Positions 24,598 to 26,163 of a stretch of DNA of 45,800 nucleotides are shown here, piece after piece. The translations under genes were made by a program, and so were the position numbers. How positions within the stretch are numbered: position 1 is the first letter of the stretch; every line of letters starts with the position of its first letter. The notes below the pieces were generated by a model, which saw only the letters and a program-made list of their open reading frames with translations, did no database searches and was not told where the DNA came from. The stretch covers positions 1 through 45,800 of the forward strand of contig JAHEJV010000005.1 in NCBI GenBank assembly GCA_024638705.1. The letters are read 5' to 3'. This DNA comes from Deltaproteobacteria bacterium (GTDB lineage Bacteria; Myxococcota_A; UBA9160; SMWR01).

Positions 24598-24924
24598 ATG
24601 GCCAAGGTTGCAGAAGTCACGGACCAGAACTTCCAGAGCGAGGTACTCGATTCGGACACGCCGACCATCATCGATTTCTGGGCCGAATGGTGCGCCCCCT
24701 GCCGCCAGATCGCCCCGATCATCTCCGAGCTCGCCGAGGAGTACGGCGACCGCGTGAAGATCGTGAAGATGGACATCGACGCCCATCCCAACACGCCCGG
24801 CCAGTACGGCGTCCGCGCGATCCCCACGATCCTCGCCTTCAAGAACGGCCAGGTCGTCGAACAGCTCCAGGGCGCGCGGCCGAAGGCGGACTTCAAGGCG
24901 ATGGTCGAGGGGTTGCTCGCCTAA
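24598..24924 (+). CDS. trxA: Thioredoxin
   Basis: IIDFWAEWCAPCRQIAPIISELA (WCAPC), GVRAIPTILAFKNG. Confidence 0.97.
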   Translation: MAKVAEVTDQNFQSEVLDSDTPTIIDFWAEWCAPCRQIAPIISELAEEYGDRVKIVKMDIDAHPNTPGQYGVRAIPTILAFKNGQVVEQLQGARPKADFKAMVEGLLA

Positions 24925-24993: not shown

Positions 24994-25390
24994 CCCACGG
25001 GGTTGCCCGGTATTCCTCCGGCCAATGGCTCGCTTCGACGTCACGTGCCGTAGCCAGCTCGTTGCCCGTCGCGCCGCGCAGGCGTAACGGGAGTTCTCCT
25101 CGGGCTGCGCTTCAGTTGGCCTGCGGAATACCGGGCAACCCCGTGGGCGGCAGCGACGGAGTCCCTGCGCGAGCGCTGGGCAGTTCGCCACCCACTCACA
25201 CCGGAGGTCAGCGGCCGGGCTCACGGACCCGCGCGGCGCGGGCGGCCGGGATTTCTTCCGGCCAACTCAGCGCAGCAGGCCGCGCGATAGTCAGCTTCCG
25301 CGGCGCTCCAGCCTCACCTCGGCTTGGTACTCCGGAGAAACAGGCGAGCCATTGGCCGGAGGAAATGCCGGTCGACCGCGACGCTCTCCG
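24994..25390. repeat. Cluster of four ~45 bp repeats in alternating orientation (noncoding structured element)
   Basis: Copies at about 24994-25033 (+), 25105-25147 (-), 25238-25275 (+), 25344-25385 (-), sharing core CCGG.ATT(T/C)C..CGGCCAA; perfect 23 bp IR (24994-25016/25125-25147) and perfect 21 bp IR (25013-25033/25344-25364). Confidence 0.9.
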
Positions 25391-25455: not shown

Positions 25456-26163
25456 CTAACGCGTCGGGGGGGTGAAGAAGCGGACCGGCCAGTTGCGGCG
25501 GGTGGCTTCTCGGTAGAGCATCGGATCGGGATTGGTGGCGACGGGGTGGCCGACGAGGTCCATCAGGGGGCGGTCGGTGATCGAGTCGGTGTAGAAGAAG
25601 CTCTTCGCGAGATCGATCCCTTCGTCCTCGATCAACTGCTGCACCCAGTAGATCTTCCCCTCCTCGAAGCAGATCGGCTCGATCACGCGCCCCGTGAACA
25701 GCCCCCCCTCCACTTCGAGCCGCGTGTAGAGCATGTGCGCGATGCCGAGCCGCTCGGCGAGCGGGCGCACCACGAACTTCGTCGCGCCCGAGACGATCGC
25801 GACGACGTGCCCTGCCTCCTGGTGATCGCGCACCAGCTTCGCGGCCTCGGGATAGAGCGCCGGCATCACGAGCTGATCGAACCAGTTGGCGGCCTGCGCT
25901 TCGAGGTCGGCTTCGCGCTGCCCGCGAAATTCCTGCATCAGCGACTTCGTCCAGCTCTGGATGTCGAGGACGCCGAGCTTGTACTGGAGATAGGTGGCGA
26001 CGCCCTTCGCCAGCTCGAGATTGCCGATCTCGCCCTGGCGGTAGCGGTGCTTCATCCACAGGCTGCCCGAGTTCTCGGCGATCAGCGTCTTGTCGAGGTC
26101 GAAGAACGCGCCGATCCGAGGGCGACGACGGGACGTCTTCTGGACGACGGCGGAAGCGGCCAT
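25456..26163 (-). CDS. HAD-IB family phosphatase (SerB-like)
   Basis: IGAFFDLDKTLIAENSG, VAIVSGATKFVVRPLAERLGIAHMLYTRLEVEGGLFTG, YTDSITDRPLMDLVGHPVATNPD. Confidence 0.9.
   Translation of the reverse strand: MAASAVVQKTSRRRPRIGAFFDLDKTLIAENSGSLWMKHRYRQGEIGNLELAKGVATYLQYKLGVLDIQSWTKSLMQEFRGQREADLEAQAANWFDQLVMPALYPEAAKLVRDHQEAGHVVAIVSGATKFVVRPLAERLGIAHMLYTRLEVEGGLFTGRVIEPICFEEGKIYWVQQLIEDEGIDLAKSFFYTDSITDRPLMDLVGHPVATNPDPMLYREATRRNWPVRFFTPPTR

Follow-up and report, generated by a model that had tools for sequence, protein, structure and literature searches.

The interval between trxA and the HAD-family hydrolase gene in the window (the whole 45,800-nucleotide stretch of DNA that was analysed) holds, at 24994-25384, a ~152-nt hairpin unit twice, in inverted orientation, and not four copies of a ~45-bp repeat. 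The region is best explained as a doublet from a family of REP/BIME-like extragenic hairpins that belongs to one bacterial order and whose core is read by a protein on one strand, a reading whose probability we place a little short of even. An earlier note had described inverted repeats at this locus, and these were recovered in the order and orientation given there. The repeats that it counted as four copies are real; they are, however, the arms of two inverted units with two arms each. Its "heads" and "tails" likewise pair as described, but the heads are each unit's own arms, while the tails are the core strands plus a few neighbouring bases, and they look inverted-repeated because two inverted copies of one unit share the same core. 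The stretch folds far better than shuffled versions of itself (z of -5.4 as DNA and -4.8 as RNA, with none of 100 shuffles as good), and an element of ~440 nt recurs in the genome at 78-95% identity; the repeat is therefore not a product of chance.

Table 1. Features of the trxA-HAD interval, in window coordinates
Feature	Position	Strand	Remark
trxA (thioredoxin, PF00085)	24598..24924	+	converges on doublet
Unit 1 hairpin	24994..25147	-	32-nt arms 24994-25025 / 25116-25147 (inverted repeat, 94%); minus-strand order arm-ACTGAAGCGCAG-loop-CGAGCCAT-arm
Cross-unit inverted repeat	25013..25033 / 25344..25364		21 nt, 100%
Core strand A, unit 1	25025..25032	-	CGAGCCAT on minus strand; invariant in alignment
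Core strand B, unit 1	25105..25116	-	ACTGAAGCGCAG on minus strand
Inter-unit spacer	25148..25232		recurs together with doublet elsewhere in genome
Unit 2 hairpin	25233..25384	+	33-nt arms 25233-25265 / 25352-25384 (inverted repeat, 85%); reading order of unit 1, on plus strand
Core strand B, unit 2	25265..25275	+	ACTCAGCGCAG
Core strand A, unit 2	25345..25352	+	CGAGCCAT
HAD-family hydrolase (PF12710)	25456..26163	-	converges on doublet

Each unit is a complete hairpin, with a stem of ~28-33 bp, a fixed asymmetric core and a loop of about 73 nt, arranged as arm, core strand B, loop, core strand A and complementary arm. In relatives, strand B reads A.T[CA]AAGCGCAG and strand A reads CGAGCCAT (5' to 3'). 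This core is invariant throughout the order, asymmetric and not self-complementary, and it is found on unrelated stems. Its conservation among loci derived from the core pattern is in part by construction; the same core is also present in covariance-model hits, and the models do not demand an exact core. The stems are wholly different from site to site, yet nearly always complementary. Loop length is narrowly distributed (median 73 nt, interquartile range 71-76) over variable loop sequence, and in one minimal copy (L248) the loop is reduced to a GAA triloop. At 6-8 bp outward from the core, the stem often carries G.A/A.G mismatches on the plus-oriented strand, and these non-complementary positions are maintained in many genomes next to paired positions that change freely. 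Beyond the arms, no conserved bases were found among 44 non-redundant units, including any terminal GTAG or CGTC tag.

Two alignments show that the pairing is conserved independently of the stem sequence. In a set of 13 units from the host genome (G000, which carries the window), picked by DNA similarity and core and not by pairing, 20 of the 33 stem pairs have changed on both sides and 92% of cells pair, as against 29-46% when the partner is slid by 1-3 columns. In a diverse set of 38 units, filtered to stem scores of 13 or more, both sides vary in 26 of 28 pairs, and the covariation score is 0.686, compared with 0.178 for shuffled and 0.12-0.19 for slid controls. This filter should matter little, because the stem scores of core-pattern hits fall into two groups: those of 13-29, nearly all from Myxococcota or Deltaproteobacteria MAGs, and those of 7 or less, to which belong copies cut off by a contig end, stray hits in unrelated groups and a single copy that has apparently decayed. 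Since the sequences are related, simple p-values overstate significance, and calibrated E-values are rough. With compensatory changes beyond both shuffled and slid controls, the units are a structure-conserved nucleic-acid element. The earlier note had named, as grounds against its proposal, a single occurrence with neither covariation nor a transcript, or homology to a known annotated element; the element is multi-copy and covarying, and has no Rfam match, whether the window was searched at a relaxed E-value or eight relatives' loci at the gathering threshold.

The earlier note had also proposed a switch between two adjacent hairpins and one long nested hairpin. The 21-bp tail complementarity that this calls for does exist, but it consists of the shared core and adjacent bases of the two inverted units. 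Across 18 doublets, within-unit arms match at about 89% of positions, whereas the partner arms of the 18 adjacent pairs are identical at only 58% of positions once the inner 6 nt are set aside (unrelated units, 41%), so that nested pairing is kept up only within the core. For the window sequence, the nested fold is also the less stable one, by about 4 (RNA) or 8 (DNA) kcal/mol, and single units without a partner are common. With within-unit pairing conserved and covarying, and cross-unit pairing confined to the core, a two-state switch is very improbable.

Orthologous sites show how the stems change. At one such site (L146 and L172, 86% identical over 6.2 kb), seven stem pairs differ between the two copies, and every one is paired in both, one of them as G.T. 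Units are similarly retained with changed stems at two further sites (L134/L167/L082 and L142/L183). Such sites are occupied in two or three congeneric species, and the stem changes are paired. Between orthologues the arms are better conserved than the loop, whose sequence drifts like intergenic DNA. Could the pairing be a mutational by-product, with template switching or intrastrand conversion copying one arm onto the other and no selection involved? The stem changes in doublets, which are clustered, mirrored in both arms and almost free of unpaired intermediates, are what such neutral upkeep would produce. It would not account, however, for the G.A/A.G positions 6-8 bp from the core being kept in many genomes, for a core that is invariant without being self-complementary, for the better conservation of arms than loop between orthologues, or for the strand asymmetry of the mismatches described below. 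This explanation is accordingly judged quite improbable.

At another site (L102/L118/L127), one species has the complete (-) unit, a second has none and a third keeps a collapsed remnant. In the remnant (L127, about 310-345, genome G016), set beside L102 and L118, pieces of the outer arms survive but the interior of the hairpin has been lost, a sequence arrangement consistent with deletion of a palindrome. Because the third species keeps this remnant, deletion does occur, and the precise absence that separates L102 from L118 is not readable as an empty insertion site. Neither a duplicated target site nor a clean junction of insertion was established. In two loci (L134 and L167), a gene lies between two units in the order (-)gene(+). 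It was rejected as part of the element, since it looks like a gene for a secreted protein and genome G011 has the same two units as a doublet without it.

The trxA-HAD pair itself is convergent in eight members of the bacterial family. The gap without a unit is about 1-147 nt (G002, G004, G007, G008, G012 and G014), compared with 274 nt in G005, which has one unit with a different stem, and about 530 nt with the doublet in the host. In G006 the gap is 293 nt and holds two hairpins of unrelated core, to which we return below.

Several asymmetries bear on which strand is read. Among 988 stem pairs of non-redundant units, read on the plus-oriented strand, there are 21 G.T and 6 A.C mismatches; the corresponding p of 0.006 applies if the pairs are independent, which they are not fully, and the mismatches are few and the sequences related. 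On the same strand the loop has more A than T in 40 of 44 units and more C than G in 34 of 44, and the G.A mismatches near the core fall on the strand that shows the G.T excess. Predicted fold energy was dropped as an indicator of strand, since the stem slightly favours the plus-oriented strand and the loop favours the other. Judged from these sequence biases, recognition of one folded strand is suggested, although not proved.

A folded strand with an invariant unpaired core, a covarying helix and a loop biased to A over T and C over G could also belong to a multi-copy structured non-coding RNA that has its own promoter and a protein-binding core. Several observations count against such an RNA. 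Besides the absence of Rfam matches, no sigma-70-type promoter was matched in the inter-unit spacer, the loop drifts between orthologues, and wobble pairs are few for an RNA helix, with 27 G.T or A.C among the 988 pairs. A tRNA search returned nothing. We regard a dedicated RNA of this kind as distinctly unlikely.

Single units lie between convergent genes in 33 cases, tandem genes in 25 and divergent genes in 4, according to the crude calls of a simple GC-frame gene caller. They are mostly at gene 3' ends, often 15-60 nt from stop codons, and adjacent units are always ordered (-)(+) with core strand A outward (18/18; 14/14 in the gene-context count). The proximity to stop codons and the avoidance of divergent regions bring in the main rival to protein recognition of DNA, in which an RNA-binding protein would bind the core and the hairpins would work at the RNA level at gene 3' ends, terminating transcription, insulating against antisense RNA or stabilising the 3' end. 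Transcripts that read through into a (-)(+) doublet from either gene would then carry a unit in its folding orientation just before the opposite gene. The apparent preference for one strand of core and loop fits this explanation, and the loop, being C-rich and G-poor on the favoured strand, may resemble a Rho site by analogy; Rho-binding sites are C-rich and G-poor. In tandem settings, however, either orientation is equally common (12 versus 13), a count that also led to rejection of a fixed sense orientation to the neighbouring gene, as had first been suggested. Neither a U-tract nor an intrinsic terminator (hairpin plus U-tract) was matched at the window locus, and the flank logo of the units has no T-run after the arms. 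Intrinsic terminators are similarly rare at gene ends with a unit (4/58) and without one (9/176), which does not support the units as replacements for such terminators. The simplest form of a role in RNA is thus disfavoured by the random orientation between tandem genes and by the missing U-tracts; such a role is one that we consider unlikely, although less so than the other alternatives.

The host genome contains at least 32 distinct units by the covariance model R1, among the best-scoring candidates examined; about a dozen of them are nearly identical to one another and form a second subfamily. The copy-number check proposed in the earlier note bore it out: the ~440-nt doublet is present in seven copies including that of the window, the six others lying on contigs C245, C171, C282 (twice), C190 and C161 (in part), with fuzzy boundaries. 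DNA-level searches returned no match in 60 relatives and none in the same-genus genome. With seven doublets 78-95% alike here and none detected in that genome, the doublet has been amplified within this genome's lineage. Two of the doublets, on C190 (15038-15107; L046) and C282 (23032-23100; L045), have an insert of ~58 nt in one unit each, where the stem meets core strand B; the two inserts occupy mirror positions in opposite orientation, and the insert is itself able to fold into small hairpins. Single units with other stems also stand alone in the host, for example two on C130 and one on C500, the latter beside a gene reading as a main sigma factor. The two similar C130 units (L039, 388-535 and 2490-2619) are about 2 kb apart in (+)(-) order and flank a gene that reads by eye as thiC. 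This gene was rejected as transposon cargo, as it reads as an ordinary thiC and the units are in (+)(-) order.

Beyond the host, R1 matches were found in 19 of 61 genomes of near relatives at E<=0.1, the weakest of which need caution. By the covariance model, members of the family occur in many genomes of this order, whereas the genomes sampled from outside the order gave no match. Scanning 85,488 species genomes for the core pattern gave 86 stretches, mostly in MAGs labelled Myxococcota, Myxococcales, Deltaproteobacteria or Proteobacteria; no stem accompanies the stretches from groups that are clearly unrelated. Three pattern hits in viral contigs all lack a stem, and plasmids and phages gave no match. 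No published description of this hairpin family was found in the open literature searched. One small core, carried at many gene ends in the order on a stem that differs from site to site but matches itself, suggests a structure-read, REP-like element that has not yet been catalogued.

An invariant, asymmetric core within a stem that is free in sequence but kept paired argues for a partner that reads structure plus core. In the preferred explanation, a protein would read the folded core on one strand, either as single-stranded DNA during replication or as DNA extruded by supercoiling. If the folded core is what the protein reads, selection would act on the pairing of the stem and not on its sequence. 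An enzyme would copy the elements in trans, and the insertions that persist may be chiefly those between convergent or tandem genes, which do little harm.

The trxA-HAD gap of G006, a genome of the same family as the host, contains a second hairpin family (L226, 840-1061), whose core, TTGCGCTCCCTT...ACGGTCGCGAAA, is unrelated to that of the first. Eight exact-core copies occur in this genome (also L262-L269), with stems that are locus-specific and complementary, pairing having been judged by eye. At the same convergent trxA-HAD site this second family, too, forms an inverted doublet. A broader proposal would be that structure-read hairpins occur across the order and function at each site, a stem of free sequence, selected for pairing, presenting the core to a protein that reads one strand, as single-stranded DNA or as RNA, and that the second family follows the same strategy. 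This proposal is tentative, and we hold it to be possible rather than probable. If it is true, a second family with free stem and fixed core would point to a strategy of general use in the group and not to a single repeat family.

The family offers a natural multi-copy data set with orthologous sites, where pairing is kept although the stem sequence is free. It allows selection on structure in bacterial extragenic palindromes to be tested, together with strand and partner, which is an old question for REP/BIME elements. Should the partner be a transposase, structure-guided mobility would extend beyond RAYTs; should it be a host protein, or should the function lie in the transcript, the units would form a new class of gene-end element in a poorly studied group.

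A RAYT transposase is the usual partner of REP elements, and the earlier note had suggested that one be sought. None was found in the host genome, an assembly about 90% complete, either by the Y1_Tnp profile PF01797 or by a RAYT profile built from RAYT-like proteins of relatives, nor in several other unit-rich genomes, whose assemblies are incomplete. Some genomes of the order (G042, G028 and G006) do encode RAYT-like proteins of about 205-262 aa, many copies each (L218, L219, L221 and L222), which match Y1_Tnp weakly and REP_Tyr_transpos below its cut-off. No convincing flanking hairpins were seen beside the RAYT-like genes examined in relatives.

In kind, the evidence supports the suggestion of an unusual REP/BIME-type or nonautonomous mobile element: the units are dispersed, extragenic, palindromic and multi-copy, they form inverted doublets, and a unit may be present or absent at an orthologous site. 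REP elements measure 20-40 bp, with stems of 5-13 bp, short loops and an unpaired terminal GTAG or CGTC tag (PMC3733652). REP/BIME elements form inverted dimers, lie mainly between convergent or unidirectional genes and are sometimes without a dedicated transposase (PMC3733652). The units described here share the extragenic, dispersed distribution at moderate copy number, the inverted dimers and the mostly convergent or unidirectional context. In contrast to REPs, however, they have a stem of ~28-33 bp and a loop of ~73 nt, outside the REP size range, and lack a terminal tag, the invariant part being an internal core and the stem sequence being free. The family is thus filed as REP-like in behaviour but not as a REP, having failed the tests of size, tag and transposase. 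REPINs are inverted doublets with sequence-conserved ends, a variable spacer and RAYT partners (PMC3116915). The present doublets resemble them in that the inverted pair looks like the unit of spread, in their compensatory changes and in their extragenic preference; they differ in that each half makes a complete hairpin of its own, in which the ends vary and the middle is conserved, and in the host's lack of a detected RAYT. With the subterminal hairpins at the single-stranded DNA ends of IS200/IS605 they share a hairpin specific to one strand, whose mismatches are a plausible signal for recognition, although no Y1 transposase was found in the host and the doublet partners are oppositely oriented.

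MITE-like repeats such as ERIC and Correia/NEMIS are palindromic intergenic elements of roughly 100-150 nt that spread in trans, and MITE terminal repeats are conserved in sequence and read as duplex DNA. The arms of the present units, in contrast, are unconstrained in sequence save for pairing. Integron attC sites are sequence-variable hairpins with a variable loop, recognised through structure on one strand. Here no RYYYAAC/GTTRRRY boxes or cassette array were seen, and, unlike in attC, the conserved part is an internal loop within a long stem.
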